DNA of 64,000 bases, taken from Micromonospora sp. HM5-17. GTDB taxonomy: Bacteria > Actinomycetota > Actinomycetes > Mycobacteriales > Micromonosporaceae. Where the stretch lies: assembly GCF_003762835.1 (NCBI RefSeq), contig NZ_RJWA01000008.1, positions 186,001-250,000 of the forward strand. The letters are read 5' to 3'. The notes below the pieces were generated by a model. It made no database searches. It was not told the origin of the DNA and saw only the letters and a list, made by a program, of their open reading frames with translations. This document shows, in pieces, positions 8,181-31,808 of this stretch. How positions within the stretch are numbered: the first letter of the stretch is position 1; every line of letters begins with the position of its first letter. A program made the translations under genes and the position numbers.

Positions 8181-8223
8181 GGGTGCTCCTTCTTAGGGTG
8201 GGGGTCGTGTCGGCGGGCGGTGC

Positions 8224-8961: not shown

Positions 8962-9896
8962 CGTCCGTGCTCCGCCACGAACGCGTCGATCTCCGCCCGC
9001 TCCCAGGCCCGGTCGGCGATCACGACCCGGTGGGCGAGCCGGAGTGTCTCGCCGGGCGCGAGGGAGACCTCCTGGTCGAAGGCGGGCGAGGGGTTGATCG
9101 CCGGGAACGGGGTGTTGCGGACGAACCACTTCAGCGGGACCGCGGCGCTGGAGGTGCCGGCAAAGACCAGCACCGTGCCGCCGCCGTCCACCTCGTCGTG
9201 TTCCCCGGTGTACGCCAGCCAGGGTGACACCGTTCCCATGCTCTCCGGGTCGCCGCCGCCGTCCGGGGTGAGGATCCGCCCGCCGGTCCAACCGCGCGGG
9301 CCGCGCCAGAAGAAGCCGGTGTAGCCGGCGTTCGGTCGGCCGTGCGTGGTCGGGCTGCCGATGGAGAGCTCGGCGCCCCGGATGTTACGTAGTTCGGTGT
9401 CGAAGTCCAGCATCCAGCTGCCACGCTCCGGGTCGACGCCGTGGAAGCGGAGCTCCCGGCGTTCGGCGACCCAGTGCTCGCCGGCCGCGGTGATCCAGGT
9501 CAGCGACTCGCGCAGGGTGAGTGCGGTCGGGGTGACGTCGACGAGGTCGAACGAGTCGTGGCGCATCCGGCCGACGTTGTCGAGCGTGGTGTAGCCGCGG
9601 CCGCGGACGTACGAGGGTCCACCCCAGAAGTTCTGCCCGGACAGGTGCGAGATCGTCATCTGGATGCCCTTGTGCCACCGGTGGTCGTTGGGCCGGTACG
9701 CCGTGACCGGCGCGCCGCGCAGCGTGCGCAGTGGGTGCAGGTACGGCTTGGGCGCCTCGAACGGGGGAGTCCGGGAATCGTCGTAGACGTAGGTGGCGAT
9801 CTCCACTCCGGCGGCGGCGACCACGATCCGGTGTCCGTACTCGTGGCTGACGGTGAGGGTGCCGGTGTGCTCGGTGGGACTGGGGGTGGATGTCAT
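8958..9896 (-). CDS. DUF6807 / PmoA-family protein
   Basis: 312-residue protein of the DUF6807 (annotated PmoA-like) family, common in carbohydrate-utilisation operons of actinomycetes. It has a conserved central HRWHKGIQMTISHLSGQNFW segment and a GRPNAGYTGFFWRGPRG segment. The Pfam family has no firmly assigned chemistry; the name comes from a methane-monooxygenase annotation and does not imply methane oxidation. It is the first gene of the operon with the cupin and Gfo/Idh/MocA enzyme. No signal peptide is seen, so it should be cytosolic. Confidence 0.82.
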   Translation of the reverse strand: MTSTPSPTEHTGTLTVSHEYGHRIVVAAAGVEIATYVYDDSRTPPFEAPKPYLHPLRTLRGAPVTAYRPNDHRWHKGIQMTISHLSGQNFWGGPSYVRGRGYTTLDNVGRMRHDSFDLVDVTPTALTLRESLTWITAAGEHWVAERRELRFHGVDPERGSWMLDFDTELRNIRGAELSIGSPTTHGRPNAGYTGFFWRGPRGWTGGRILTPDGGGDPESMGTVSPWLAYTGEHDEVDGGGTVLVFAGTSSAAVPLKWFVRNTPFPAINPSPAFDQEVSLAPGETLRLAHRVVIADRAWERAEIDAFVAEHGR

Positions 9897-13763: not shown

Positions 13764-15107
13764 CTATGCCCCCCGGTAGTTGTAGAGCTGGTCGACGAAC
13801 TTGCGGCGCAGCGGCGGCACCCGGCTGGTCACGCTGAAGTAGCCCCGGGCGGCGAGCATCGCGAGGCGGCCGATGACGGGCTTGTAGATCGGGTCGTCGC
13901 CGTTGGTGCCGTTGGTCCGCAGCGAGTCGGCGACCCGGGCGAAGCCGTACCGGATCATCTCCCTCTCGTAGTCGGCGACCGCCGCCAGCAGCGGCTTGGC
14001 GCCGGCCTCGACGGCGACCAGTTCCCGGCGGAGCAGGGCCGCGTCCCGCAGCGCCGTGTTGGCCCCGACCCCGCGACCCGGGGTCATGGTGTGGATCGCG
14101 TCCCCGAGCAGCGTGACGCTGCTGCTCGGCCAGGGCTCGACCGGGACCGACGTGGCGACCCGGATCGGGACGACGCTGCCCGGGTCGGCGCTGCGTAGCA
14201 GTTCCCGCAGGTGCGGATGCCAGTTCCGGGTCAGCTCCAGGGCGATCCGGGTCAGGGGCTCGCCCCGCAGCTCCATCACGTTCGCCGGGAAACGGCTCGC
14301 CGTGCTCCAGACGATCAGGTTGATGTGGTCGCGGGTGTTGTCGTAGAGGAGGCCCGGCCAGCGTTCGATCATGCTCGCCTCGGTCACCCCGATCCCCGGC
14401 TTGACCGCACCGCGCCGGTCCCACCTGAACTCCATGACGTGCAGGACGCCCATCACGCCGCCGGCCCCGAAGATGAGTGAGATCCCCTGTCGGACCTCGT
14501 CGGAGAGGAGACTCCGGGTGCGGTCGGTGAGCGGGATCTTGCTGGCGATGTTGATACTGCCGGCGTCCTTGACCACCGCGTGCGGCAGGTACTGCCGGCG
14601 TACCGCGGAGTGGGTGCCGTCGGCGGCGACCAGCAGGTCGCCGGTCGCGGAGGTGCCGTCGGCGAAGTACGCCGTGACCTGTCCGTCGTCGTGCTGCTGG
14701 TAGTGGGTGAAGGTCTTGTCGAAGTGGACCACGTCCTCCAGTCCGGTCAGCAGGACCTGGCGTAGGGTCATCCGGGAGACCGACTGGTCGATGCTGGTCG
14801 GGTCGGCGTCCGGCCGTAGCGGGAACGAGGCCGTGCGGTGCAACTGCTCGGTGAGCACGTTGAAGAACCGGGGCGGCCGGGCGCAGGTGGCGAGGAACGT
14901 CTCGAACAACTCGGGTGGCAGGCACTCCCGCAGGGCCCGGCAGCCGGTCGGGTTGATCCCGACCCGGTACCCCAGCAGACCATCGGTGCGGGTGCGGTAC
15001 CGCTCGTAGACCGCCACGCTGATGCCGGCGCGTCGCAGGCCGTGCGCCAGGCACATGCCGCCGGTGCCGGCGCCGATGACGAGTACGTGCAGCGGTGTGC
15101 GGGACAT
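13764..15107 (-). CDS. FAD-dependent aromatic polyketide hydroxylase
   Basis: 447-residue class A flavoprotein monooxygenase. It has the Rossmann motif VIGAGTGGMCLAHGLRRAG, the DG-type motif VAADGTHSAVRRQYLP and the FAD ribityl motif LLGDAIHTMTPGRGVGAN. Enzymes of this type use NAD(P)H and oxygen to hydroxylate polycyclic aromatics. In whiE-type spore pigment clusters an FAD hydroxylase is divergent from the PKS core, as here. It follows the TcmI-like cyclase (19-base gap) on the minus strand, so the two form an operon downstream of the SARP gene. Confidence 0.9.
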   Translation of the reverse strand: MSRTPLHVLVIGAGTGGMCLAHGLRRAGISVAVYERYRTRTDGLLGYRVGINPTGCRALRECLPPELFETFLATCARPPRFFNVLTEQLHRTASFPLRPDADPTSIDQSVSRMTLRQVLLTGLEDVVHFDKTFTHYQQHDDGQVTAYFADGTSATGDLLVAADGTHSAVRRQYLPHAVVKDAGSINIASKIPLTDRTRSLLSDEVRQGISLIFGAGGVMGVLHVMEFRWDRRGAVKPGIGVTEASMIERWPGLLYDNTRDHINLIVWSTASRFPANVMELRGEPLTRIALELTRNWHPHLRELLRSADPGSVVPIRVATSVPVEPWPSSSVTLLGDAIHTMTPGRGVGANTALRDAALLRRELVAVEAGAKPLLAAVADYEREMIRYGFARVADSLRTNGTNGDDPIYKPVIGRLAMLAARGYFSVTSRVPPLRRKFVDQLYNYRGA

Positions 15108-15126
15108 CCGACGCCCTCCCGCCGGG

Positions 15127-15471
15127 TCAGTGGACGGGGCCGGGCGCGGTCGCCGGCCTGTCCCACCGATAGAAGCACCGGGCCATCGCGTCCCGAGGAG
15201 ATCGCCAGGTCGGCGAGTACGGCGCGAGGTAGGCGCCGAGCCGTTCCTGGACGCTGGCGACGAGCGGGTGGCGGCTGGCCTGGGCGAGCCGGGCCGGGCC
15301 GTCGTCCTCGGTCTCCATCAGGTGCAGGCACAGGTCGCCCAGGCAGTAGAGCGAACGGTGACGTACCCCGGTCACGGCGTGCAGGTCCGTCTCGTCCGCC
15401 TCGGCGAAGATCTTTTTGATCTCCTCCTCGGTGCCCGGGACGATCTTTCCCACGATCAGCACGCGGTCCAT
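15127..15471 (-). CDS. TcmI-family polyketide cyclase (copy 1)
   Basis: 114-residue protein of the TcmI / Cyclase_polyket family (ferredoxin-like fold). Such enzymes close the later rings of aromatic polyketides without cofactors. Family hallmarks are VLIVGKIVPGTEEEIKKIF, GVRHRSLYCLGDLCLHLME and the C-terminal PTWRSPRDAMARCFYRW. It is a paralogue of the copy at 17200; both share RHRSLY and the last 16 residues. ATG 15471 was chosen over an upstream in-frame start because homologous copy 2 begins MDRSLIV and this one MDRVLIV. Confidence 0.93.
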   Translation of the reverse strand: MDRVLIVGKIVPGTEEEIKKIFAEADETDLHAVTGVRHRSLYCLGDLCLHLMETEDDGPARLAQASRHPLVASVQERLGAYLAPYSPTWRSPRDAMARCFYRWDRPATAPGPVH

Positions 15472-15756
15472 GTCGGCTCTCCCATGCGGTAGGGCGGTCG
15501 GCCCGGCCACCATCGCGCCCGCCCCGTCACCGGTCCATTACCAATCGGGGGCGACCGGTTGCGGCGGAATGACGTCGAGGTGACGTCCGGCGGGTCACCC
15601 TGGACCAGCCAGCGTGCCCGAGGCCCGGAGCCGTGCCCGGGTCGGGAGCCCGCCGCTGGTCAGCCGTGCCGCCGGACGCGGCCGGCCCGGCGGGACGAAC
15701 CCCGGAGCCGGCGGGTCCCGGAGCGGGCGTACCCGTTCCGCACCGCCGATTCCGCG

Positions 15757-16668
15757 TCAGCGTTGCCTCGGTACGGCCGACAGCGCCGATCGGCCACGGT
15801 GCGGCGCCGGCCGCGCCGGGTCCGCGGGAGCCGGCCGGACGGCGGGGTGCGGGCCGGGATAGGGGTAGGGCCGTGGCGACCGGGTGATCTTCGGGCGGGG
15901 GATCGGGTCGAGGAGGTCGCTGAGCAGGGCGCACATCGCCGGGGACGGCTCCAGTTGCAGTTCGCGCACCAGCAGGTCGCGGTAGACGTAGAACGCCTGC
16001 AACGCCTCGTAGGCGTTTCCCTCGGCCAGGTGGGTCTCGACGATCAGCCGGTGCGGCGTCTCCCGCAGCGGTTCCGCCCGGACCGCCTCCAGCGCCGCCT
16101 GCAGCGCCTCGCCGTGCCGTCCGGCCCGCAGGTGGCCCCGGGCGACCTCTTCGAGCAGGTGCAGCCGTAGCTGGCGGAGCCGTTCCCGTTCCAGCAGGAC
16201 CCAGTCGTCGTACCAGCCGGGCAGCAGGTCGTGCCGGCCGGCGGTGAGCACCGCCGCGGCCTGGCGCGGGTCGCCGCCGTCGCGGACCTGCTCCGCCACG
16301 CGAACGAGGTCGTCGACGTCCAGCTCGACGGCCGGGTCGAGCCGGACCGTGTCCCCGGTGACCAGGATCGGGCAGTTCCCGTCCTGGCGCAGCCGCCACA
16401 GCGCGGTCCGGAGCGAGGACATCGCCCGTTCCTCCGAGGTATCCGGCCAGAGCAGACCCGCCAGGTAGGCACGGGTCGCGCCAGGGCGCAGGCCGACCAG
16501 TGCGATGATCCGTTGCAGGCCCCGAGGTACGACGACGGGCGCCCCGTCGTGCAGCAGGGTGAACCCGTCCAGGAGCAGCAACCGGATCGTCCGCGCCGGG
16601 CGGGGCGCGGCGGGGCGATGCGGTGGCCGGTGTGCCCGGCCGTGCGGCGCGCTCTCCCGAGAGGTCAC
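15757..16668 (-). CDS. SARP-family pathway activator
   Basis: 303-residue Streptomyces antibiotic regulatory protein. Residues about 25-110 form the OmpR-type winged helix (RTIRLLLLDGFTLLHDGAPV at its start, MSSLRTALWRLRQDG as the recognition region). Residues 115-265 form the bacterial transcriptional activation domain, with LPGWYDDWVLLERERLRQL and EALQAFYVYRDLLVRELQLE. SARPs switch on biosynthetic operons by binding heptamer repeats at 11-bp pitch beside the minus-10 element. The GTG at 16668 has GGAGG seven bases upstream; earlier in-frame codons lack a ribosome site. Divergent from the PKS operon. Confidence 0.92.
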   Translation of the reverse strand: MTSRESAPHGRAHRPPHRPAAPRPARTIRLLLLDGFTLLHDGAPVVVPRGLQRIIALVGLRPGATRAYLAGLLWPDTSEERAMSSLRTALWRLRQDGNCPILVTGDTVRLDPAVELDVDDLVRVAEQVRDGGDPRQAAAVLTAGRHDLLPGWYDDWVLLERERLRQLRLHLLEEVARGHLRAGRHGEALQAALEAVRAEPLRETPHRLIVETHLAEGNAYEALQAFYVYRDLLVRELQLEPSPAMCALLSDLLDPIPRPKITRSPRPYPYPGPHPAVRPAPADPARPAPHRGRSALSAVPRQR

Positions 16669-16849
16669 GGCCAACCCTCCTGCACCTGGAACCCTCTGCC
16701 GGAGTTCCGCTCCGTCGGCCGGATGACGGCCGCCCAGCCGCCCGACCTCTCTGCTGCCGCACTGCGTCCCGTACGGTCGTCCGGCGGTCGGCGCACCCGG
16801 CCGGTCGTAACCGCAAAGCGTGACGAACGTTATCAATCACCGTTACGCT

Positions 16850-16868
16850 CGGTCAACGGCCGGTCAAC
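16850..16868. promoter_or_regulatory. SARP-type direct repeat, pair 1
   Basis: CGGTCAAC at 16850-16857 and again at 16861-16868, an exact 8-base match at 11-bp pitch (one helical turn), as in SARP operators. It lies about 190 bases upstream of the SARP start, so it may serve autoregulation. Confidence 0.55.
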
Positions 16869-16995
16869 AATCCGACCCGGTGGAGTGATCCGGAGACAGG
16901 CCGGCTGACCTGCACAGAAGCGTGTGCGAAGAGCCTTCGACCGGGCCCCTGGCGCGCCCGACGAGGTGTCCGGATCGCGCATTGTGCCCCGTCGC

Positions 16996-17012
16996 CGTCA
17001 CCAGAGCGTCAC
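16996..17012. promoter_or_regulatory. SARP-type direct repeat, pair 2
   Basis: CGTCAC at 16996-17001 and 17007-17012, 11-bp pitch. It shares the GTCA core with pair 1. Confidence 0.5.
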
Positions 17013-17040
17013 GAGTTCGGCGACCCGGTGGACCCCGTCG

Positions 17041-17057
17041 GGTGACGGCCCGGTGAC
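17041..17057. promoter_or_regulatory. SARP-type direct repeat, pair 3
   Basis: GGTGAC at 17041-17046 and 17052-17057, 11-bp pitch; on the other strand it reads GTCACC, the same core as pair 2. A TAGCAG hexamer at 17065-17070 is a possible minus-10 for the PKS operon, close to the usual 8-base distance from a SARP repeat. Confidence 0.5.
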
Positions 17058-17199
17058 AGCCGGATAGCAGGGTGGTCAGCAGTGTTCGGACGAGGCCGCC
17101 GCTGGCGGACCACCCATGGTCAGCCCGCGTCCCGGCGGCCCGGCATCCGGTTGCCCCTCGCCGCGAGGCACGGCACACCGGACCCAGGGAGGCTGCCCC

Positions 17200-17544
17200 A
17201 TGGATCGCTCGCTGATCGTCGCCAGGGTCGTCCCGGCCGCGGAACGACAGGTGGCGCGGATCTTCGCCGAGTCGGACCAGACCGAGTTGCCGCACCTGGT
17301 CGGGGTTCGTCACCGCTCGCTCTACCGGCTGCACGACCTGTACGTCCACCTGATCGAGACCGATCGGCCGGGCGCCGCCGCCGTGGAGAACGTCCGCCGA
17401 CACCCGGAGTTCGTCCGGATCAGCGAACGGCTCTCCCCGCACGTCACGCCGTACCTGCCGACGTGGCGGAGCCCGGCGGACGCGATGGCGCGCTGCTTCT
17501 ACCGCTGGGACGCTCCGGCCGGCTCCGCCGGGAGCGGGCGATGA
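17200..17544 (+). CDS. TcmI-family polyketide cyclase (copy 2)
   Basis: 114-residue paralogue of the cyclase at 15127, first gene of the PKS operon. Shared features are MDRSLIV at the start, GVRHRSLYRLHDLYVHLIE, and PTWRSPADAMARCFYRWD at the end. It would catalyse a late ring closure of the poly-beta-ketone assembled by the KS pair. AGGGAGG precedes the ATG. Its stop overlaps the start of the AccDA gene (ATGA), so carboxylase and cyclase are translationally coupled. Confidence 0.93.
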   Translation: MDRSLIVARVVPAAERQVARIFAESDQTELPHLVGVRHRSLYRLHDLYVHLIETDRPGAAAVENVRRHPEFVRISERLSPHVTPYLPTWRSPADAMARCFYRWDAPAGSAGSGR

Positions 17545-19519
17545 CCCCCGACCGCGACCGGTCGTCGTGGGTTCGGTGCCGCTCCTGCCGGGCGCTGCTC
17601 TACCGCCGGCGGCTGCGCCGCAACCTCGACGTCTGCCCCGAGTGCGGTGACCATCGGCGGCTCGACGCGCCGGAGCGGATCCGTCAGCTCGTCGACCCGG
17701 GAAGCTTCACCGCGTTGCCCGACCGGGCGGTCGTGGTGGACCCGATCGGCTTCGTCGACTCGGTGCCGTATCCGCGCCGGCTGGCCGAGGCGCGCGCCGA
17801 GACGGGCCTAGCCGAGGCGGTGGTCTGCGGTACGGCACGCCTCGGCGGCCACCGCCTCGTCCTCGCCGTGATGGACTTCCGGTTTCTCGGCGGCAGCCTG
17901 GGTTCGGTGACCGGCGAGCTGATCACCCGGGCCGCGGAGCGGGCCCTCGCCGACGAGCTGCCACTCCTGCTCGTCACCGCCTCCGGCGGCGCCCGGATGC
18001 AGGAGGGCGTGCTGGCCCTGATGCAGATGGCCACGGTCAGCCAGGCGATCGCCGCGTTGCGGGAGGCCGGACTCCTGACCCTCAGCCTGGTCACCGATCC
18101 GACCTACGGGGGAGTGGCCGCCTCGTTCGCCACCTGCACGGACATCGTGCTCGCCGAGAGCGGCTCCCGGTTGGGGTTCGCCGGTCCCCGGGTGATCCGA
18201 CAGACGATCGGGCAGGACCTGCCGGACGGCTTCCAGGGCAGCGACTTCCTGCTGCGGCACGGTCAGGTCGACATGGTCGTGCCGCGGCGGCAGCTGCGAC
18301 CCCGGCTGCGGTGGCTGCTCTCCGCCGCCGAGTCCGCCCGGTCCGGCGCCGCCGCTGCCCGTACCGCCCCCGCCTCGAGCGATGCCGCCGCTGCCGGCGT
18401 CGTCCACCTCGGTACCGCCCCGGTCGGCTCGGCGCCCACCGGTACCGGCACGGTGGGCCGCGCCGGCGTCGCAGGCGGTCGGCCGCCCGCACGCGCTGCC
18501 CAGGGAGAGCCGCCGTCCTCGTCCGGTACGGAGGGCGACCGGAGCGCGGCGGAGGCGCAGCTCGGAGACGCCCTCCCCGGGACGCCGCACCGGAGCGTGC
18601 CACCGGATCCGGACCCGGCGGGGGACGCCTGGCGGATCGTCCGCTCCGCCCGGCACGCGGGTCGACCGACCACCCTGGACTACCTGGCGACCGCCTTCGA
18701 CGGCTTCGTCGAACTGCACGGCGACCGCCTCGGGGTGGACTGTCCGGCGATCGTCGCCGGCCTGGCCCGGCTGGGCGACCGGTACGTCGCCGTGGTCGGA
18801 CACCAGAAGGGGCACGATCCGCGCGAGCAGCAGGCCCGGAACTTCGGGATGGCAACCCCGGCCGGCTACCGCAAGGCGCTGCGGGTGATGCGGCTCGCCG
18901 CCGGACTGGGTCTGCCGGTGGTCACCCTGATCGACACCCCCGGGGCGTACCCGGGGGTCGAGGCCGAGCAGCAGGGCCAGGCGGCGGCCATCGCGGAGAG
19001 CATCCTCACGATGAGCGGTCTCCGGACCCCCGTCGTCGCCGCCGTGATCGGAGAGGGTGGCAGCGGTGGGGCTCTGGCCCTGGCCGTCGCGGACCGGGTG
19101 CTGGTGCTGCGTAACGCGGTCTACTCGGTGATCAGTCCCGAGGGCTGCGCCGCGATCCTCTGGAACGACCGGGCGGCGGCACCCCGGGCCGCCGCGGCAC
19201 TCCGGCTCACCGCGCCGGACCTGCTGCGGCTCGGCGTCGCCGACGCGATCGTCCCGGAACCGCCCGGGGGAGCGCACCGGGACCGAGCCGGAGCCGCCGC
19301 GCTGCTCCGCCAGGCGCTGCTCGACGCCCTGACGCCGCTGCTCGACGTACCCGTCGCCGAGCTGGTCCGCCGTCGACGTCGCCGGTTCCGGCGGTACGGT
19401 GCCGCGGCGTCGGTGACCCCCGAGGTGGGGACGAAGGTCGGTGACGATCGACCCGGGGCGACCGCCCGGCCCGGGGTGACGGCGGAGCCGGCCGTCCTGA
19501 CCGTCGGATCGGGGTCCCG

Positions 19520-19523
<4 letters not shown>
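17541..19523 (+). CDS. accDA: Fused acetyl-CoA carboxylase carboxyltransferase (AccD-AccA)
   Basis: 660-residue fusion of both carboxyltransferase subunits of a bacterial (four-component) acetyl-CoA carboxylase. The N-terminal beta part has the AccD zinc ribbon with Cys13, Cys16, Cys32 and Cys35 and then VTASGGARMQEGVLALMQM and DPTYGGVAASFA. A low-complexity Ala/Gly/Pro/Thr linker covers about residues 265-355. The alpha part begins near ARHAGRPTTLDYL and has GHQKGHD, TLIDTPGAYPGVEAEQQGQ and IGEGGSGGALALAVADRV. It transfers carboxyl from biotin to acetyl-CoA, giving malonyl-CoA for the PKS. The housekeeping actinobacterial carboxylase is built differently, so this one looks dedicated. Confidence 0.93.
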
Positions 19524-23013
<3,490 letters not shown>

Positions 23014-23017
<4 letters not shown>

Positions 23018-24285
23018 ACCGGCGCCGGAGCGTGGTGACCGGGATCGGTGTGGTGGCACCCGGCGGGGTCACCCGGGACGAGTTCTGGGCCACCATCACC
23101 GCCGGCCGGACGGCGACCCGGCGCATCACCTTCTTCGACCCGTCGCCGTTCCGCTCCCAGGTCGCCGCCGAGTGTGACTTCGACCCGGTCCGGGCCGGGC
23201 TCAGCGTGGCGGAGCGGCAGCGCGCCGACCGGTACGTCCAGTTCGCCCTGGCCGCCTCGGCCGAGGCGCTCACCGACAGCGGCCTGGAGCTGACCGACGC
23301 GACGCGGGAGCGGACCGGGGTGGTGCTCGGCTCGGCCGTCGGCGGCACGATGCTGCTCGAGCAGGAGTACGTCCGGGTCAGCGACGCGGGCGCGGAGTGG
23401 TTGGTGGATCCGGACCGTGCCGGTCCCTTCCTCTACCAGGCGCTGATGCCGAGCAGCCTCGCCGCCGACGTCGCCTGCCGGTACGGCCTGCACGGCCCGG
23501 CCCAGGTCGTCTCCACCGGCTGCACCTCCGGGATCGACGCGATCGGTTACGCCCACCAGCTGATCGAGGACGGGGAGGCGGACGTGGTGTTGGCCGGTGC
23601 GTCGGACAGTCCGATCTCGCCGGTCACCGTCGCCTCCTTCGACGCGATCAAGGCGACGACACCGTGCAACGACGATCCGGCCCACGCCTCCCGGCCGTTC
23701 GACCGGGACCGCCAGGGTTTCGTCCTCGCCGAGGGCGCCGCGGTGCTCGTCCTCGAGGAGGCGGCGTTCGCCGCCCGGCGGGGGGCGCGGATCTACTGCG
23801 AGGTGGCCGTGTACGCCAACCGGAGCAACGGCTACCACATGACCGGGCTCCGCCCGGACGGGGTGGAGATGGCACTGGCCATCCAGGACGCGCTGGCCCA
23901 GGCCCGACGCAATCCCGACGAGGTGTCCTACATCAGCGCGCACGGCTCGGGTACCCGGCAGAACGACCGGCACGAGACGGCCGCGTTCAAGCGGGCCCTC
24001 GGGTCGGCGGCGTACCGCATACCGATCAGCTCGATCAAGTCGATGGTCGGGCACTCGCTCGGGGCGATCGGCGCGATCGAGATGGCCGCCTGCGCGCTGG
24101 CGGTCGCCCACCACGTCGTCCCGCCGACGGCCAACTGGGCCAACCGCGACGAGGAGTGCGACCTGGACTACACCCCGAACGTGGCCCGGGAGGTCAAGGT
24201 CGACGTGGCGCTCTCGGTCGGCAGCGGCTTCGGCGGCTTCCAGTCGGCGATGGTCTTCGCCGGATACGGCGGGCCGGACCGGTGA
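23014..24285 (+). CDS. Type II PKS ketosynthase alpha subunit
   Basis: 423-residue KS-alpha that condenses malonyl-ACP units with KS-beta. Catalytic residues are in place: Cys170 in [13 protein letters not shown], His in [15 protein letters not shown], and His in [14 protein letters not shown]. The start [20 protein letters not shown] and the end [15 protein letters not shown] are canonical. [20 protein letters not shown] is the usual KS-alpha central block. GTG overlaps the cupin stop. Because no ketoreductase gene lies nearby, the chain should remain unreduced. Confidence 0.96.
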
Positions 24286-25538
24286 CCGGGGCAGGGGGCG
24301 CCGGCCCGTCGTCGCGTCGGGCCGTGGTGACCGGGATCGGCGTGGTGGCGCCGAGCGGGATCGGCGCGGAGGCGCACTGGAAGTGCGTCCTCGCCGGGCA
24401 GCACCGGATCGGCCGGATCACGCTCTTCGACCCGAGTCGCTATCCGGCGACGCTGGCCGGCGAGGTCGCCGACTTCGACGCGCTGCAGCACGCGGAGAAC
24501 CGCCTGGTCGTCCAGACCGACCGGTGGACGCACCTCGGCCTCGCCGCGACCCGGCTCGCGCTGGCCGACGCCGGGCTGCCCGAGGTCGCCGACGACCCGT
24601 ACGGGTACGCGGTGACCCTGGCCAGCTCCTCCGGAGGCAATCTCTTCGGCCAGCGGGAGCTGCAACGGCTCTGGCGCGGCCCGGGACGGACCGTCGGGGC
24701 ATACCAGTCGATCGCCTGGTTCTACGCGGCCAGCGTCGGCCAGCTCTCCATCCGTCACCAGTTCAAGGGACCGTGCGGGGTGCTCGCCGCGGAGAGCGCC
24801 GGCGGGTTGGACAGCCTGGCCCACGCCGTCCGGCTGGTCCGCCGGGGCACCCCGGTGGTGCTGGCCGGCGCCACCGAGTGTCCGCTGAGCCCGTACGCCC
24901 TGACCTGTCAGCTGCGCAGCGGTCTGCTCAGCACCTGCGCCGACCCGGAGCGGGCGTACCGGCCGTTCGACGTGGCGGCGAGCGGGTACGTCCCCGCCGA
25001 GGGCGGCGCCGTCTTCGTGGTGGAGGAGTGGGAGCACGCCCGCGCCCGGGGCGTCACCGGGTACGCCGAGGTGGCCGGCTGGGGGGCCAGCCACGATGCC
25101 CGGCACACCGACGGGTCCGCCGGCGGTGATGTCGGGCAGTACGCCCGGGCCATGGGGCTGGCGCTCGAGCGCGCCGGGGTCGAGCCGTCGGCGGTGGACG
25201 TCGTGGTGCCGGACGCGCTCGGCGTGCCGCGCCACGACCGGAGCGAGGCGGAGGCGCTCCGGCGGGTCTTCGGGCCCCAGCCGCCGCCGGTGACGACCCA
25301 GAAGGCGCTGACCGGCCGGGCACACCAGGGTGGCGCGGCGCTGGACGTGGCGACCGCGCTGCTCGCGATGCGCTACGGCGTACTACCGCCGTCTGCGGGG
25401 CCGGACCGCCCGGCGCCCGGCTGTGACCTGGACTTCGTCCGGGAGTCCGGTCCCCGACGGGTGGCGACCGCCCTGGTCTGCGCCCGTGGGTTCGACGGCT
25501 TCAACAGCGCGGTGCTGCTGCGCCGCACCGCCGGGTAG
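24282..25538 (+). CDS. Type II PKS chain-length factor (KS-beta)
   Basis: 418-residue partner of KS-alpha. It has the same fold ([20 protein letters not shown] at the start, [11 protein letters not shown] at the end), but the active-site Cys is absent: the sequence is [11 protein letters not shown] with Ser172 at that place, where most chain-length factors have Gln. KS-beta proteins set chain length and decarboxylate malonyl-ACP for priming. GTG start overlaps the KS-alpha stop (GTGA), giving equal translation of both subunits. The second catalytic His region is also replaced ([13 protein letters not shown]). Confidence 0.95.
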
Positions 25539-25556
25539 GGGAAGGAGGGCGACGAG

Positions 25557-25868
25557 ATGGCCAAGGCCAGGGTGTTGTTCCTGATGAGGGTGCCGCGCGA
25601 CCGCACCGAGGATTTTCTGAAGGCGTACGAGCAGATCCGCTACCAGGTCGCCGAGGGGGTGGCGGGGCACCTGGTCGACCAGGTCTGCGAGTCGACCACC
25701 GATCCGGAGCAGTGGTTGATCACGAGCGAGTGGGCCTCACTGGCCCACTTCGAGGCGTGGGAGCGTAGCCCGGCGCATCGGGAACTGGTGGCGCCGATGC
25801 GAGCCTGCATGACCGAGGCGAGGTCCATCCGGTTCGTCGTCCGCGAGGAGACGTCGGCGCGCCGGTGA
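25557..25868 (+). CDS. Antibiotic biosynthesis monooxygenase (ABM) domain protein
   Basis: 103-residue dimeric ferredoxin-like fold protein of the ABM family. FLMRVPRDRTEDFLKAYEQI begins the domain; SEWASLAHFEAWERSPAHRE is the typical second half. Such small proteins act as cofactor-free monooxygenases that make quinones in aromatic polyketides or as accessory cyclases. It is the last gene of the PKS operon, 18 bases after KS-beta, with a GAAGGAG site. A hairpin terminator follows at 25905. Confidence 0.88.
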   Translation: MAKARVLFLMRVPRDRTEDFLKAYEQIRYQVAEGVAGHLVDQVCESTTDPEQWLITSEWASLAHFEAWERSPAHRELVAPMRACMTEARSIRFVVREETSARR

Positions 25869-26015: not shown

Positions 26016-26438
26016 ATGGAGTTCGAGTCCGCGGTCCGGACGGTCGGTACGGTTCTCGACGCCGTCGGGGTGGCGATCATCCTGGTGGGCGCGCTCGCCG
26101 GCACCGGCCTGTTCGTCCGGGGGGTGCTGCGCGGCCAGCCGTTCGGCGACACCTACCGCCGGTACCGCCAGGGACTCGGCCGGGCGATCCTGCTTGGCCT
26201 GGAGTTTGTCGTCGCCGGCGACATCATTCGGAGCGTCGCCATCTCGCCCACCTTCCAGAGCGTCGGCGTCCTGGCGGTGATCGTCCTGGTCCGGACCTTC
26301 CTCAGCTTCTCGCTGGAGGTCGAGTTGCGGGGCCGCTGGCCATGGCAGGACCGCGCACCGCGTCCGGCTCGGCGGTCGGCGGGGGAGACCGACGGCGACC
26401 CGCCGGGCGGCGCCGACACCGGTGCCGCCGACCGGTAG
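26016..26438 (+). CDS. DUF1622 membrane protein
   Basis: 140-residue inner membrane protein with three hydrophobic segments (about residues 15-35, 60-78 and 87-102) and a charged C-terminal tail. The segment RYRQGLGRAILLGLEFVVAGDIIRS matches the DUF1622 family, whose function is unknown. ATG 26016 follows GGAGG with six-base spacing. Monocistronic, convergent with the chitinase gene. Confidence 0.82.
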   Translation: MEFESAVRTVGTVLDAVGVAIILVGALAGTGLFVRGVLRGQPFGDTYRRYRQGLGRAILLGLEFVVAGDIIRSVAISPTFQSVGVLAVIVLVRTFLSFSLEVELRGRWPWQDRAPRPARRSAGETDGDPPGGADTGAADR

Positions 26439-26531
26439 AGCGGCACGGGTTCCCGTCCGGGAGCGGACAGGGGCGGGCGGCCGGACCCCCGCTGGTGGGA
26501 AAGGGATCCGACCACCCGCCGTCCGGGACGG

Positions 26532-27941
26532 TCAGGGAAGCCGCCAGACCTGGTTCGCGCCGCCGAAGCAGTCCCAGATCTGGAGCCGGGTGCCGTCGGC
26601 GGAACTGTTGTCGGTGGCGTCGAGGCACTTGTTCGACTGTGGGTTGCGCAGCACGCCGTTGCTCTGGGGTTGCCACACCTGGGCGCCGGTGCCGTTGCAG
26701 TCGTAGAGCTGCACCTTGGCGCCGTTGGCGGTCGCGCCCGCGGTGACGTCGGCGCACTTGCCCAGGGCCCGCAGCGTGCCGTCGCTGCCGATCGTCCACT
26801 GCTGGGCGTTGGTGCCGTTGCAGGTCCAGAGCTGGATCGGCGTCCCGTTGGCGGTGGAGGCGCCGGCGACGTCGACGCACTTGCCGCCGATTCCGGTGAT
26901 CTGGCCGGTACGGCCCGGCGGGTTCGTACCGCCACCCATCACGGTGTCGTAGATGGCGCTCACCAGCGAGGTGGCGTCGGTGCGGTCCTGGGACAGCTCC
27001 CAGTTCATCATTCCGCCGGCGTTGGCCAGGGCCCACTGCGTCTTCCGCTTCACGGTCGGGATGCCGTTGTAACACTGCTGGGCACCGCCGACGGTGACGC
27101 AGTCGCGGTTGGCGTTGGCCGGGTCCATGCCGACGAGCGCGGAGTAGGTGTAGTAGCCGGGCCGGCTGTAGAACGGCACGCCCAGGACGGCCTTGCTGGC
27201 CGGGAGGCCCCGGGCCTTCCAGCCGTTCACGCTGTTGATCGACCAGTCGTAGTTGGCGTGCGGGCTACCGCCGTCGTACGCCATGATGTTGAGCCAGTCG
27301 ACGTAGCCGAAGACGGCGGGTTGGATCCCCTCGACGTACCAGCCCTCGGAGACCACCGCGGCGGTCAGCAGCTTGCCACGGGGCCGCAGGGCTCCGCTGA
27401 GCTGCTGCATCAGCGCGGTGTAGTTGGCGGCCGAGGCGCCCGGGTCGGGGTACTCCCAGTCCATGTCGACGCCGTCGAGGTTGTACTGCTCGACGAAGCC
27501 GACCACGCTGTTGACGAACGTGGTCCGGCTCGAGGCGTTCGCGGCGAGGGCCTCGAAGGCCGAGTCGTCGCCGTTGTTCCAGCCACCGATCGCGATCGAC
27601 ACCTTCACGTTGTTGCGGTGCGCCAGCGACACCAGAGCGGAGAGCTTGCCGGGGTTCTCGATGGGGCGCAGTGTCCCGTTCGCGTTGGGGAGCGCGAAGG
27701 CGTAGTTGATGTGGGTGAGCTTGCCGTACTGGATGGTGTTGACGTCGCCGGACCAGGACGGCAGGTACCCGACGCTCTTGAAGTTGTTCGGCAGCACGAC
27801 GGCCGCCGCCGGGGACTGCGGTCCGAGCGCGGCGGCGGTGCCGGCGACGGCCGTCGCCAGGGCGAGCCCGCCGGCCGTGAGGACGGACCGGAGGCGTCGA
27901 CGTGGCGGGTACGACCGGTGCGGGCTTGCGGTGGGTGACAT
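26532..27941 (-). CDS. Secreted GH18 chitinase with C-terminal ricin-type lectin domain
   Basis: 469-residue endochitinase. A signal peptide (basic MSPTASPHRSYPPRRR, then LRSVLTAGGLALATAVAGT) directs secretion. The GH18 barrel (about 50-345) has SIAIGGWNN and the catalytic DGVDMDWE motif with acid Glu near residue 166. Residues 345-469 form a CBM13 beta-trefoil with three QxW repeats (QQWT, QVWQ, QVWR). The enzyme would degrade chitin outside the cell, the lectin keeping it on glycans. ATG 27941 follows AGAAGGGA. Convergent with the DUF1622 gene; an AT-rich element upstream may control it. Confidence 0.95.
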   Translation of the reverse strand: MSPTASPHRSYPPRRRLRSVLTAGGLALATAVAGTAAALGPQSPAAAVVLPNNFKSVGYLPSWSGDVNTIQYGKLTHINYAFALPNANGTLRPIENPGKLSALVSLAHRNNVKVSIAIGGWNNGDDSAFEALAANASSRTTFVNSVVGFVEQYNLDGVDMDWEYPDPGASAANYTALMQQLSGALRPRGKLLTAAVVSEGWYVEGIQPAVFGYVDWLNIMAYDGGSPHANYDWSINSVNGWKARGLPASKAVLGVPFYSRPGYYTYSALVGMDPANANRDCVTVGGAQQCYNGIPTVKRKTQWALANAGGMMNWELSQDRTDATSLVSAIYDTVMGGGTNPPGRTGQITGIGGKCVDVAGASTANGTPIQLWTCNGTNAQQWTIGSDGTLRALGKCADVTAGATANGAKVQLYDCNGTGAQVWQPQSNGVLRNPQSNKCLDATDNSSADGTRLQIWDCFGGANQVWRLP

Positions 27942-28076
27942 CGCGGGTCCCTTCTGCGGAAGGTGGCACCTCGGCGCACGCCGCTCCGCCCTCGGACGTG
28001 GCCGGGGAGTCCCGAGGGTCCCTCGTGTCCGTCGGGGGTGCGAGGGTGACATCGACGTGGCTGAGTGGCAGAAAGA

Positions 28077-28093
28077 TTAGGAAAGTTAACTAA
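28077..28093. promoter_or_regulatory. AT-rich palindromic element upstream of chitinase
   Basis: TTAGGAAAGTTAACTAA has TTAG/CTAA outer arms and a perfect GTTAAC centre, in an island far richer in A and T than its surroundings. It lies about 140 bases upstream of the chitinase start and is a candidate control site for chitin or carbohydrate response. Confidence 0.4.
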
Positions 28094-28281
28094 GGAAGTC
28101 AATCATTCCAGTTTGGTTACCGAGTGACCCGCGCCGGGCCTGGCCCGCGCCGGCCAGGCCGGGACGGGCAGCACTGCCGGCGCCGCACGCCGACGCCGAG
28201 CCGGGACGGGGGCGAAGGCGGCGGGCACGGGCAGACCGGTTGACCCGGATCTCGGTCCGCGTGGCGTGGCATCGCCGTGCG

Positions 28282-28370
28282 GGCCGCGTCGCTGACGCGG
28301 CCGTGCGCACCGGCGGCTGGGTCGAGGGAGAGCGCCAGCGGCCCCATCGTGTGGGCGGCGTCGCTGACGC
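28282..28370 (-). terminator. Two related hairpins after the anti-sigma gene
   Basis: GGCCGCGTC-GCT-GACGCGGCC (28282-28302) is a perfect 9-bp stem. A related hairpin with the same GCGTC-GCT-GACGC core lies at 28358-28370. Together they form a tandem terminator for the leftward anti-sigma gene ending at 28439. Confidence 0.55.
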
Positions 28371-28438
28371 GGCGCGCCGCCGTCTGGCCGGCTCGGTGCG
28401 CCGTCCGGACGGGTGGTCGCCGGGGTGCCGAGGCCCGG

Positions 28439-29242
28439 TCAGGCCGCCCGTCGCGGGTCGCGGACCCGGACCGGGGCGGACCCGCGGTCGGCCTCGACCG
28501 TGACGGAGCCGGAACCGAGCCGCGCGGTCGGGGCGGAACCCGGCAGCAGGCGAAGCCGGGGCGGGTCGGGCTGGTCGTCCTCCTCGAACCTGACCCGCCA
28601 GCCGGCGCGGCCCCGCAGCCCCGGGGGCTCGCCGGGGTCGTGCCGCCGGCGCGACAGTCCGAGGATGAGCAGGTAACCGGCCAGGATGAACCCGTGGCTG
28701 AGGAGTCGGCCGGGGTCGACCCGTCCCGCGATCAGATCGTTGGCGGAGAGCAGGGTGAGGACGGCGACGAACGCGGTGAGGGTCGGCAGCAGCCCCTGCG
28801 GGCGGGTTCGGCGTAGCGCGATCCAGGCGAAGCCGGCGCCGAGCGCGACGTTCCACGCGGCCGACTCGTGCCAGAGGTGGTTCGGGCCGCCGCCGAGCAC
28901 GACCTCCAGCCCGTGCGGGTGGCCGGCGTCCCCGATCCCGGCGATCTGAGCCGCACCAAGCAGGAACTGGGCGACCCCGACGACACCGAGGGCGCCCCAG
29001 AGTGTCCGGCCGGACCGGGTGTTACGGGGACCGGGTGCGGCGTCGAGGAGTCTCGCGTCGATCTCGGGCGGTGGCGGGACCAGACTGGTCCGGGCCAGCC
29101 GGTTGAGCGCCGCCGCGCTCTCGAGCCAGGCCCGGCACTCCGCGCAGTCGGCCAGGTGGCGATCCGTCGCCGCCCGATCCTCGGGCGTCTCCTCGCCGTC
29201 CAGTCGCGCCGACAGTGCCTCTCGATACCGTTCGCACCCCAC
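28439..29242 (-). CDS. Membrane anti-sigma factor with zf-HC2 domain
   Basis: Protein of about 267 residues. The N-terminal zinc anti-sigma motif is RHLADCAECRAWLE (His-x3-Cys-x2-Cys). After a linker come about five hydrophobic segments (residues 80-205), then a charged tail. Such proteins hold an ECF sigma factor at the membrane until a signal arrives. It is divergent from the sigma gene at 29377, a classical partner arrangement in which both may share a promoter region. The start is uncertain: GTG 29242 gives a compact N terminus, but ATG 29329 is possible. Confidence 0.8.
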   Translation of the reverse strand: MGCERYREALSARLDGEETPEDRAATDRHLADCAECRAWLESAAALNRLARTSLVPPPPEIDARLLDAAPGPRNTRSGRTLWGALGVVGVAQFLLGAAQIAGIGDAGHPHGLEVVLGGGPNHLWHESAAWNVALGAGFAWIALRRTRPQGLLPTLTAFVAVLTLLSANDLIAGRVDPGRLLSHGFILAGYLLILGLSRRRHDPGEPPGLRGRAGWRVRFEEDDQPDPPRLRLLPGSAPTARLGSGSVTVEADRGSAPVRVRDPRRAA

Positions 29243-29376
29243 ACCGTCATAGTCGGACCAGCGGCGGGCCTGGTTCCCGCCGGGGGTAGCGGAGCTCCTT
29301 CCGTCCCGGGTAGGGGCGGTCTTTCCCATGCCGGGCGGGGGTACTCGTCGGCGGGCGGCCCCGGTAGCGTGAAGGC

Positions 29377-29958
29377 ATGCCTTCCCCCGGCGTCGACGGC
29401 GACGAGATCACACGCTGGGCACTTGCCGCCAGGGCCGGAGACCGCGCGGCGGCGGCGGCCTTCATCCGGGCCACCCAGCACGACGTCCACCGGTTCGTCT
29501 CCCACCTGGTCGGCCCGGGTGAGGCGGAGGACCTGACCCAGGAGACGTACCTGCGGGCGATGCGCGCGCTGCCCCGCTTCGCCGGCCGCTCGAAGGCGCT
29601 GACCTGGCTGTTGGCGATCGCCCGGCGGACCTGCGCCGACCACGTCCGGCTCGCCATGCGCCGGCCCCGGGTGGCGGCGCTGCCGGACTGGCAGCTCGCG
29701 GCCGACGCCGAACAGGCCCGGGACGCCGTCGGCTTCGCCGGCGCGGTCGAGCTGGTCCGGCTGCTGGAGGACCTCCCTCAGGACCGGCGTGAGGCGTTCG
29801 TCGCCACCCAGGTGGCCGGCCTGAGCTACGCCGAGGCGGCCGAGGTCTGCGACTGCCCGGTCGGCACCATCCGGTCCCGGGTGGCCCGGGCCCGGGAGGA
29901 TCTCGTGGCGGCGATGCGTGCCGACCAGCCCGGCCGGCACCTCCGGTCGACCAGCTGA
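29377..29958 (+). CDS. ECF RNA polymerase sigma factor
   Basis: 193-residue group 4 sigma factor. Region 2 shows HRFVSHLVGPGEAEDLTQET and WLLAIARRTCADHVR; region 4 has LSYAEAAEVCDCPVGTIRSR as the minus-35 recognition helix. It has the region 2/4 layout of SigC/SigL-like proteins with zf-HC2 anti-sigma partners. The neighbouring divergent anti-sigma gene supports this. Targets are unknown. A perfect palindromic terminator follows two bases after the stop. Confidence 0.93.
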   Translation: MPSPGVDGDEITRWALAARAGDRAAAAAFIRATQHDVHRFVSHLVGPGEAEDLTQETYLRAMRALPRFAGRSKALTWLLAIARRTCADHVRLAMRRPRVAALPDWQLAADAEQARDAVGFAGAVELVRLLEDLPQDRREAFVATQVAGLSYAEAAEVCDCPVGTIRSRVARAREDLVAAMRADQPGRHLRSTS

Positions 29959-29959
29959 C

Positions 29960-29983
29960 CGCCGCGGCCTCGAGGCCGCGGCG
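29960..29983 (+). terminator. Sigma gene terminator
   Basis: A perfect 24-base palindrome with CGCCGCGGCC arms and a central TCGA that can form a four-base loop on a 10-bp stem. It starts two bases after the sigma factor stop codon. Confidence 0.75.
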
Positions 29984-30560
29984 TCCACCGGTGGTCGGGC
30001 CCTGACCATGTGAGCTCTCCCGTCTGCCGCCGGTCGTACCGCCATCGGACCTGGGCGACGGGACCGCGCCGGCGGGTGGTGCCGACCACAATGGGGCGGG
30101 CTTCCTTTCCGCCATAAAGCGGTACGGATCGTCGCCGGGGATTCGGCCGACGGCGGCGGACATTTCTGGGGCGGATACGGACGATTAGCGTGCGTGCCCC
30201 GGATGGGATTTCGATCCGGCCCGTCGGCCTCGGTGGAGGGTTGGGTGTGCCGTAACGGTCGGCTCTGGTGGCGGGCCCGGAGCCGACCCCGGCCGCGCGC
30301 CGTGAGCAGGGCGCAGGTGCAGGATGCAAGGCGCCCTCGCCGCCATGGTCGGGGTCCGGGTGTGCGTCCGCATATGCGGGGTACGGAGTGCGTCAGACCA
30401 CTGCGGTAACGAATGTCTTGACTTCCCATCCTGGGCGAGCGCATCGTGGGAATCCCTGATGTTGCGGGGTTTTCGACGGTCGACACATTCCCCGGCGGCC
30501 GGGACATTGCCGGCGAGTGTGTGCGCCAACCGCGCCCGCGGCGTCGGCCAGGAGGCGATT
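29984..30560. other. Intergenic region before the cytochrome P450
   Basis: About 580 bases with no supported gene. A TTGACT hexamer near 30418 may be a minus-35 element for the P450. The region is slightly lower in GC than its surroundings. Nothing else was recognised. Confidence 0.4.
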
Positions 30561-31808
30561 ATGGAACTTCGCCCGTTTACTGGTACCTATCTCACCGACC
30601 CGGCCGCCGTCTGGCATGACCTGCTGCGTCGCGATCCGGGCGTGCACTACGCCGAGGATCTTGGAATGTGGCTGATCAGCCGACACGAGCACGTGCGTGA
30701 GGCCTTCGCCGATCCGGAGAGCTTCGGTAACGCGCTGACGCTGGCGCCGGTCTACGAGATGTGCCCGGAGGCGCTCGAGGTGCTGGCGCGGCTCGACGTG
30801 CCGCCGACCACCGCGGCGGCCGACGCGCCGGTCCACACCCGGACCCGGCGGGCGTTGCGGGCGGCCTTCGCCGCCACGGCCGGCCGGGTCGAGGCCTGGT
30901 ACGGGCCGATCGTGCGCCGCCGCGTCGAGCAGCTGGTCTCCGGGTTGGCTCGGCGGCGCGGTGAGGTGGTCGATCTCGTGCCCGAGTTCACCGCCATCCT
31001 GCCCCTGCTCGTGGTGGTGGACATCCTCGGCGTACCCGAGCGGGACGTGTCGCGGATCCGCGGCTGGGCGGACGGCCAGATCGCCCTCGTCTGGGGCCAC
31101 CCCGAGCCAGCGGAACAGGTCAGGCTCGCCCGGGGGCTGTTGGAGTTCTGGCACTACTGTCAGGATCTCGTCGCACGTCGGAACGCCGAGGGATCCGGCG
31201 GGGACGACTTCGTCAGCCGGGCGCTGCGCCACCGGGACGGCCGCGACGACGTCCTCACCCTGACCGAGGTCGCCAGCATGGCGTTCAACCTGCTCGTCGC
31301 GGGGCACGAGACCACCGCCGGGCTGCTCGCCCACGCGCTGGACCAGGCGCTGTCCGTACCGGAGCGCTGGCGGTGGCTCGCCGCCGTACCGGAACGCCTG
31401 CCGGGCTTCATCGAGGAGGTGCTGCGGTACGGCCCGGCGATCGACGGCTGGCTGCGGGTGACCCGCCGGCCGGTGACGATCGGCGGCGTCGCCATCCCGG
31501 CCGGGGCGCGGTGCCTCCTGCTGATCGGCGCCGCGAACCGCGACCCCGCCGTCTTCACCGAACCGGACCGGTTCGATCCGGCCCGGCCCGCGCTGCGAGA
31601 TCATCTTTCCTTCGGTCACGGGCCACATTTCTGCATCGGGGCCGCGTTGGCCCGGCTGGAGGCGGACATCGCCCTGAGGCGACTCGCCGAGGCAATTCCG
31701 GGGCTGCGGCTGGCGGATGGGCACGTCACCGCGTACAAGCCCAATCTCGCGTTCCGCGCGCACCGGATGCTGCCGGCGGTCGTCGACGCTGACGTCCGGG
31801 CGGTCTGA
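30561..31808 (+). CDS. Cytochrome P450
   Basis: 415-residue soluble bacterial P450. The I-helix oxygen motif is AGHETTAG (near residue 247), the ExxR pair is EEVLRYG, and the heme loop FGHGPHFCIGAALARLE has the axial Cys near residue 358. It needs external ferredoxin and reductase, which are not adjacent. The substrate is unknown; the family includes macrolide and polyketide hydroxylases. ATG 30561 follows AGGAGG. It stands before an XRE regulator and a conservon-like sensor; conservons often carry a P450, though usually downstream. Confidence 0.95.
   Translation: MELRPFTGTYLTDPAAVWHDLLRRDPGVHYAEDLGMWLISRHEHVREAFADPESFGNALTLAPVYEMCPEALEVLARLDVPPTTAAADAPVHTRTRRALRAAFAATAGRVEAWYGPIVRRRVEQLVSGLARRRGEVVDLVPEFTAILPLLVVVDILGVPERDVSRIRGWADGQIALVWGHPEPAEQVRLARGLLEFWHYCQDLVARRNAEGSGGDDFVSRALRHRDGRDDVLTLTEVASMAFNLLVAGHETTAGLLAHALDQALSVPERWRWLAAVPERLPGFIEEVLRYGPAIDGWLRVTRRPVTIGGVAIPAGARCLLLIGAANRDPAVFTEPDRFDPARPALRDHLSFGHGPHFCIGAALARLEADIALRRLAEAIPGLRLADGHVTAYKPNLAFRAHRMLPAVVDADVRAV

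Follow-up and report, generated by a model that had tools for sequence, protein, structure and literature searches.

Type II polyketide synthases (PKSs) have been described in a 2025 review as mono- or didomain proteins that work through transient contacts, and the weakness of their complexes hampers their study (PMC12664062). Natural fusions that join a cyclase to another pathway protein are known in TcmN (cyclase-methyltransferase) and in BenH and WhiE-I (cyclase-ABM), none of which, as described in that source, includes a carrier protein (PMC6689052). Here, we describe a type II PKS gene cluster at positions 13764-25868 of a 64,000-nucleotide stretch of DNA (hereafter the window; NZ_RJWA01000008.1, positions 186,001 to 250,000 of the forward strand), which is part of the 6.17-Mb, 51-contig genome of a strain deposited as Micromonospora sp. 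HM5-17. In this cluster, an acyl carrier protein (ACP) and an aromatase/cyclase (ARO/CYC, hereafter ARO) form a single polypeptide. The cluster probably represents, in Plantactinospora, a family of type II PKSs that occurs in many Micromonosporaceae and includes the orphan cluster pks3 of Salinispora tropica. The family is thus already known as an orphan, and the carrier-cyclase fusion is an architectural variant that we did not find described.

For pks3 of S. tropica, 18 of 25 proteins were detected by proteomics, and a spore pigment has been suggested as its product (PMC7888443). The type II PKS present in every strain of Salinispora arenicola is presumed to produce that species' black spore pigment (PMC12838356), and we infer that it is the same cluster as that of the pks3 family. 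In Micromonospora, whiE-ks, -clf, I, II, VI, and VII were reported from all tested strains but one; no separate whiE-type ACP gene is named among them (PMC5765111), as expected if the ACP is hidden in the fusion. In pentangular polyphenol clusters, a ketoreductase (KR) is reported to be invariable and two ABM-type monooxygenases are adjacent; Frankia sp. CcI3 is one of the strains with a frankiamicin-type (fkm) cluster (PMC4383371). The characterised, tcm/whiE-like persiamycin cluster (per) of Streptomonospora sp. PA3 resembles the present locus in its dedicated acetyl-CoA carboxylase (perHIJ), WhiE/Tcm-type cyclases, and SARP, but its ACP (85 aa) and aromatase (162 aa) are separate proteins, and it also has PerA, of the ketoreductase type, and eight glycosylation genes (PMC7296137). 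A search of plasmid records yielded named Streptomyces clusters, uncharacterised to judge by their annotation, and one unannotated Nonomuraea record.

Fusion of the carrier protein and the aromatase/cyclase

The original prediction had listed an ACP and a START-type aromatase as separate parts. In Pfam, residues 31-98 matched the PP-binding domain and residues 163-271 the START Polyketide_cyc domain, both within the same open reading frame (ORF), which therefore encodes one ACP-aromatase/cyclase polypeptide. Among solved structures, the ARO half was most similar to WhiE ARO/CYC (3TVR; E 1.7e-60); TcmN matched at 3e-48. In the AlphaFold model, the ACP helical bundle and the helix-grip ARO domain were both predicted with high confidence (block-mean pLDDT about 85-98), and residues 109-123 and 126-150 of the linker, about 40 in total, were predicted to be disordered. 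The top structural match of the model was 3TVR (59% identity), and no ACP-START didomain was present among the 50 structural matches listed. No description of an ACP-aromatase fusion was found in the accessible text of the open-access literature searched.

The fused proteins of 15 of the 16 fused loci (all but L048; L and G numbers denote the loci and genomes of this survey) were aligned. The carrier serine (Ser62) and Arg221, which corresponds to Arg69 of TcmN/WhiE as counted by eye, were invariant in all 15. Values of dN/dS against the window were 0.26-0.51 for the ACP and 0.18-0.38 for the ARO domain in 14 comparisons, indicating purifying selection on both domains. Linker length ranged from about 3 residues in S. 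tropica, where the ACP's final helix stops at residue 81 and the ARO domain's initial strand begins at residue 85, to about 50 residues in the window, with no conserved linker sequence.

Distribution and origin of the fusion

The fusion was in frame in all 16 loci of one ketosynthase (KS) clade supported by an ultrafast bootstrap (UFBoot) value of 100. These were the window, eleven Micromonosporaceae loci with KS-alpha identity of at least 80% (L039-L049), and L117, L118, L121, and L122; no re-split was observed among them. Loci L050-L053, L057, L060, and L111 were unfused. An ACP motif in frame ahead of ARO was found in none of 34 unfused locus entries; some loci were entered more than once among these and the 47 fused entries, so that the two numbers do not count independent loci.

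In a sample of 200 Micromonosporaceae genomes drawn from a larger group, 89 matched the fusion protein at 1e-20, and 58 of these, spanning several genera, were fused. Nine had one unbroken match across both domains, all 48 genomes with two matches had ACP and ARO in a shared frame and ORF, and G026 (L046) was fused on direct inspection of the DNA. G122, whose ARO match contains one TGA, was counted as fused on the strength of an in-frame overlap between its ACP and ARO matches and of the one open frame given in the search table. For the remaining 31 genomes, the search table did not show a fusion; the DNA was inspected in five (G015, G024, G025, G028, G029), and the other 26 were judged from the table alone. 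In a class-level sample, 40 of 246 genomes matched. Two of them (G009, G074) were Micromonosporaceae and both were fused, and the 38 from outside the family had no ACP match in an uninterrupted frame, by a test that would miss divergent ACPs. Among the loci and genomes sampled, the fusion was thus observed only in that KS clade and in those Micromonosporaceae genomes.

Within the sampled tree, the fusion has a single origin. The fused loci are monophyletic in the KS tree, and L111 and L050 branch outside them. The simplest reading of the sequences is that the fusion arose once, at the base of a Micromonosporaceae lineage, after the split from L111 and L050. In an unfused relative (L135; G417:C47:41973-42824) from one of the 38 genomes outside the family, the match covers ACP and ARO in the same frame and is interrupted by just one TAG stop, which offers a picture of a possible route to such a fusion. 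Strain G007 carries both fused (L049, C1:3327846) and unfused (L050, C1:5894091) paralogues, and G138, with a second ARO match, possibly does likewise; such strains would permit a within-strain comparison of fused and discrete ACP/ARO.

The fusion may be neutral, a stop codon having been lost in a tight operon with no effect on the chemistry, which would fit all of the explanation preferred here except action in cis; we give this slightly less than even weight. The nearest unfused relative, L111, has its ACP and ARO matches only 20 nt apart, and the variable length and sequence of the linker point in the same direction. The persistence of the fusion in 58 genomes of several genera, the lack of re-splitting, and the invariant active sites speak against neutrality, although they are also compatible with it. 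Somewhat more tentatively, this lineage of type II PKSs may have covalently joined its carrier to the first-ring aromatase/cyclase for folding in cis and a fixed 1:1 stoichiometry, in a manner resembling type I enzymes (the fungal PT domain). If so, the fusion would represent a naturally occurring step between PKSs of discrete proteins and multidomain PKSs, maintained throughout the Micromonosporaceae, and the handover of the chain from a type II carrier to the first cyclase would be testable on a naturally stabilised pair. The Salinispora fusion, with its very short linker, would provide such a stable pair for structural work, and the fusion could serve as a template for coupling carriers to cyclases in engineered pathways.

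Phylogeny of the ketosynthase pair and class membership

A tree was constructed from concatenated KS-alpha and KS-beta (chain-length factor, CLF) of 45 sequences; L062 was left out, as were L059 and L061, which duplicate L040 and L041. Support was read from unrooted bipartitions. Beyond the clade of fused loci (100), support was 73 for its union with L111, 100 when L050 was added, 72 when L054, L115, and L124 were also included, and 100 for the wider group that contains the Frankia fkm-type loci; Plantactinospora was supported at 100. Seven whiE loci (L103-L108, L110), taken as Streptomyces from one member whose ARO is 90% identical to S. coelicolor WhiE, formed their own clade (100) that excludes the window. 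In this tree, which is without pdm and ben, the KS pair of the window lies inside the shared group but outside the fkm-type loci's own clade (100). By sequence, it is thus in a sister group with the frankiamicin type and outside the Streptomyces whiE clade. The original prediction had named a placement outside both the spore-pigment and the pentangular clades as the outcome that would speak against it. Half of this was found, since the pair falls outside the whiE clade, yet beside, not inside, the KR-bearing frankiamicin clade.

The gene order of the window (ACP-ARO-cupin-KS-CLF-ABM, with ACP-ARO upstream of the cupin gene and a TcmI gene at the start of the operon) is that of fkm and not that of whiE (cupin-KS-CLF-ACP-ARO-TcmI). 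Reported fkm clusters share with the window the order TcmI-ACP-ARO-cupin-KS-CLF-ABM and the larger KS group, but have a KR between KS-beta and ABM and two ABM-type proteins, neither of which occurs in the window (PMC4383371). In the fkm-type loci L112-L114, of which L112 was taken as Frankia sp. CcI3, ARO was not joined to ACP and no carboxylase match was detected in the 20 kb fetched. The fkm-type KR query from L112 found KRs in L112-L114; in the 64-kb window, its best match had E = 1.7, the search being confined to the window. The absence of a KR that the original prediction noted therefore holds for the window.

At the CLF active-site position occupied by Gln in act, the window has Ser, and the 16 fused loci have Ser (5), Thr (3), or Ala (8). 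All seven whiE loci have Glu here, and the three fkm-type loci have Gly or Thr; the Gln of act recurs in L055, L056, L109, L116, L119, and L120. This position sorts roughly by clade over the window and the 44 other sequences. The Gln was considered as a mark of KR-bearing loci and rejected, as the KR-bearing fkm-type loci have Gly or Thr. An assessment of chain-length gating from Act numbering was likewise dropped, the Act residues found (V, N, G, K) not being those expected.

The original prediction had assigned the cluster to the whiE family, in which case it would be a true spore-pigment locus that was rearranged and gained the carboxylase, the SARP, and the fusion. The enzyme set is that of WhiE (ARO/CYC, cupin and TcmI cyclases, FAD hydroxylase, no KR in 64 kb), WhiE ARO/CYC is the nearest solved structure, and Micromonospora genomes have been annotated in print with whiE genes (PMC5765111). 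The Streptomyces whiE loci had matches to KS, CLF, ARO, cupin, TcmI, and ABM in seven of seven cases and to the FAD-oxygenase in some, and none to KR. They differ from the window in their separate KS clade, unfused ACP and ARO, gene order, and CLF Glu in place of Ser, and no carboxylase or SARP match was found in the 20 kb fetched. Since both KS clade and gene order place the window elsewhere (the tree excludes it from whiE and joins it to the frankiamicin-type group, each at 100), we did not file it as whiE and regard this origin as quite improbable. The label 'whiE' as used for Micromonospora covers a KS lineage distinct from Streptomyces whiE.

SARPs usually control antibiotics, and the product could accordingly be a pentangular polyphenol antibiotic of the frankiamicin/pradimicin kind and not a spore pigment. 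The KS group and gene order shared with fkm-type loci would agree with this, and PKMiner predicted one pentangular-type cluster each in S. tropica, S. arenicola, and M. aurantiaca; it also classed an S. coelicolor cluster, presumably whiE, as pentangular (PMC3462128). A KR and two adjacent ABM proteins would be expected (PMC4383371), but the window has one ABM gene, followed by DUF1622, and no KR; because the KR is reported as invariable in such clusters, the window was not filed as pentangular. The presence of KS-alpha in six of six congeners searched (86-89% identity) suggests a standing pigment and not an accessory antibiotic. We consider an antibiotic product unlikely.

Variation within the family and the carboxylase

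L117 was taken as the locus of S. tropica CNB-440, and the AMP-ligase, ketosynthase, and AMP-ligase genes that flank it are as described for pks3. The order FADox-TcmI-SARP / TcmI-AccDA-BCCP-BC-ACP/ARO-cupin-KS-CLF-ABM was identical to that of the window, and the two loci also share KS-alpha (80%), the fusion, and the promoter repeats described below. Accessory genes were counted in the remaining 15 fused loci, for each of which 12-20 kb had been fetched, with separate AccD and AccA queries. ACP-ARO, cupin, KS, and CLF formed a core present in all fused loci, which the oxygenases were not. A complete carboxylase was detected in 13 of the 15 (the stretch of L043 starts inside AccDA, and L048 has none) and a SARP in 14. 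The combination of carboxylase and SARP, which the original prediction had taken as a departure from a plain whiE locus, is therefore ordinary in this family, and persiamycin has both as well (PMC7296137). The full two-arm order with carboxylase, SARP, and fusion was complete in five congeners, L117, and L118, and the other fused loci miss some accessory genes. In L048 (G009, of the genus of S. tropica), a SARP gene and a TcmI gene adjoin ACP-ARO on the opposite strand.

AccDA, biotin carboxyl carrier protein (BCCP), and biotin carboxylase (BC) make up a complete heteromeric acetyl-CoA carboxylase of the E. coli type, with AccA, AccD, BCCP, and AccC all present, as the original prediction had stated. 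Genome-wide, AccA gave a single strong match, the one in the cluster (E 1e-107; the runner-up had 9e-10), so the carboxylase looks dedicated to the pathway. A dedicated carboxylase was also found in several unfused relatives.

Divergent promoter and regulator

The SARP gene had been placed inside the coupled operon, but it lies on the minus strand, divergent from it. Pfam recognised only the BTAD part of the protein; the DNA-binding part gave no Pfam Trans_reg_C match at 0.001, and a partial NCBIfam AfsR alignment covered AfsR 29-269. The divergent region between SARP and the second TcmI gene (about 530 bp) contains CGTCACC-N4-CGTCACG and, 45 bp on, GGTGACG-N4-GGTGACA. The pattern GTCAM-N6-GTCAM occurred three times in 64 kb, always in this region (expected 0.40; three reached in 1 of 100 shuffles). 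In the intergenic regions of 13 of the 16 fused loci (all but L043, L047, and L048), both orientations were present in 10, with a spacing of 42-45 bp, and the repeats are prominent when seven of the regions are aligned. Operators of SARPs are typically heptamer direct repeats of 11-bp period in the target promoter. As the inverted repeat pairs match this arrangement, they suggest that the SARP drives both arms through predicted operators in the divergent promoter. A consensus scan of the cluster for promoters and terminators gave nothing useful.

Proposed pathway

The explanation that we consider probable is that the cluster encodes an unreduced aromatic PKS of the pks3 family, with the fusion acting in cis and with a product that is probably a spore pigment. 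The carboxylase would supply malonyl-CoA, from which KS-alpha/KS-beta would build an unreduced poly-beta-ketone on the ACP; as in WhiE and frankiamicin, this chain is probably long, at about C24. The fused ARO/CYC may then close and aromatise the first ring at C9-C14, as in TcmN/WhiE, with the chain still bound to the ACP. The cupin and TcmI cyclases would form the later rings, and the ABM protein and the divergent FAD hydroxylase may oxidise the core or help pathway fidelity. The SARP would activate both arms by binding the two inverted 11-bp direct-repeat sites. The product would most likely be a dark aromatic pigment, probably of spores, and the fusion would mark a widespread orphan pigment family.

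Several observations weigh against this explanation. No known product was found for any family member, and spore-pigment function is not transferable from Streptomyces, as the KS pair lies outside the whiE clade. Accessory genes vary: of the 15 other fused loci, 10 had a detected ABM gene, 8 an FAD hydroxylase gene, and 7 a second TcmI gene of its own, and L048 has the fusion with no carboxylase genes in 20 kb. The AMP-ligases and the ketosynthase downstream of ABM occur in S. tropica pks3 and not in the window. The Pfam match of the ACP domain is modest (E 1e-6). Chain initiation may differ, given the replacement of the CLF Gln by Ser, Ala, or Thr in the fused loci. In three congeners, the cluster has a neighbouring gene of the short-chain dehydrogenase/reductase (SDR) type with 35-38% identity to the fkm KR, about 1 kb past ABM in L040 and L041 but at the opposite end in L039; these genes are absent from the window, and a KR acting from elsewhere is conceivable. 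The promoter repeats were not found in L121 and occurred in a single orientation in L046 and L122.

Layout and surroundings of the cluster

Every element named in the original prediction was recovered by gene calling and Pfam/NCBIfam scans (Table 1), including WhiE/TcmN-type cyclases and a KS-alpha whose Cys/His/His residues are kept as in 45 of 45 aligned sequences. Nine coupled genes, from a TcmI gene to the ABM gene, form the plus-strand operon, in which neighbours share 4-8 bases or are separated by 18 bases, and three genes form the minus-strand arm. The entire block was retained in five of six congeners (L039-L044), the fetched stretch of L043 beginning within AccDA, and the immediate flanking genes of the window were not found beside the cluster in these congeners; the proposed boundaries are therefore right. 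A GH18 stretch (89%) about 8 kb past ABM in P. mayteni (L059) was an exception.

Table 1. Genes and putative regulatory sites of the cluster (positions in the window)
Feature	Position	Strand	Evidence and remarks
FAD-dependent hydroxylase/monooxygenase, 447 aa	13764..15107	-	PF01494 E 6e-21; 69% to its L117 (S. tropica pks3) counterpart
TcmI-type polyketide cyclase 1, 114 aa	15127..15471	-	PF04673 E 2e-34 (longer frame to 15513)
SARP-type regulator, ~303 aa	15757..16668	-	BTAD PF03704 E 1e-17; partial AfsR match; GTG start by eye
CGGTCAA direct repeat, 11-bp period, possible third SARP site	16850..16867		Repeat scan
Putative SARP-type operator, CGTCACC / CGTCACG direct repeat, 11-bp period, conserved	16996..17013	+	Repeat scan and alignment
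Putative SARP-type operator, inverted, GGTGACG / GGTGACA, 11-bp period, conserved	17041..17058	-	45 bp from the other pair
TcmI-type polyketide cyclase 2, first gene of operon	17200..17544	+	PF04673 E 5e-44
AccD-AccA fused carboxyltransferase, 660 aa	17541..19523	+	TIGR00515, TIGR00513 over cut-off
Biotin carboxyl carrier protein	19520..20164	+	TIGR00531 over cut-off
Biotin carboxylase (AccC)	20183..21586	+	PRK08591 over cut-off; Pfam
ACP-aromatase/cyclase fusion, 314 aa	21583..22527	+	ACP ~28-100 (Ser62), START ARO/CYC ~154-306 (Arg221)
Cupin cyclase (TcmJ/WhiE-II type)	22520..23017	+	PF07883 (Cupin_2) E 6e-20
KS-alpha, Cys-His-His intact	23014..24285	+	Domain scans and alignment
KS-beta / chain-length factor, Ser at act Gln position	24282..25538	+	Domain scan, alignment; start by eye
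ABM-domain protein	25557..25868	+	PF03992 E 2e-16

Beyond ABM, the stretch 26016-31808 encodes DUF1622, GH18, and P450 proteins (Pfam), with two genes between that were read by eye as an anti-sigma factor and an ECF sigma factor. At 7101-9896, genes for a GFO/IDH/MocA oxidoreductase, a cupin, and DUF6807 lie in a row, likely a sugar-catabolism operon unrelated to the cluster. On the same contig (G000:C50:57641-63744), two open frames of 1658 and 2445 aa with ketosynthase domains probably belong to a type I PKS. A second type II KS-alpha/KS-beta pair was identified elsewhere in the genome (L055, G000:C1:613056-615043; KS-alpha 66%) and represents a different pathway; its neighbourhood contains a TcmI gene, several SDRs, and a distant START protein, and it groups with L123 in the tree.

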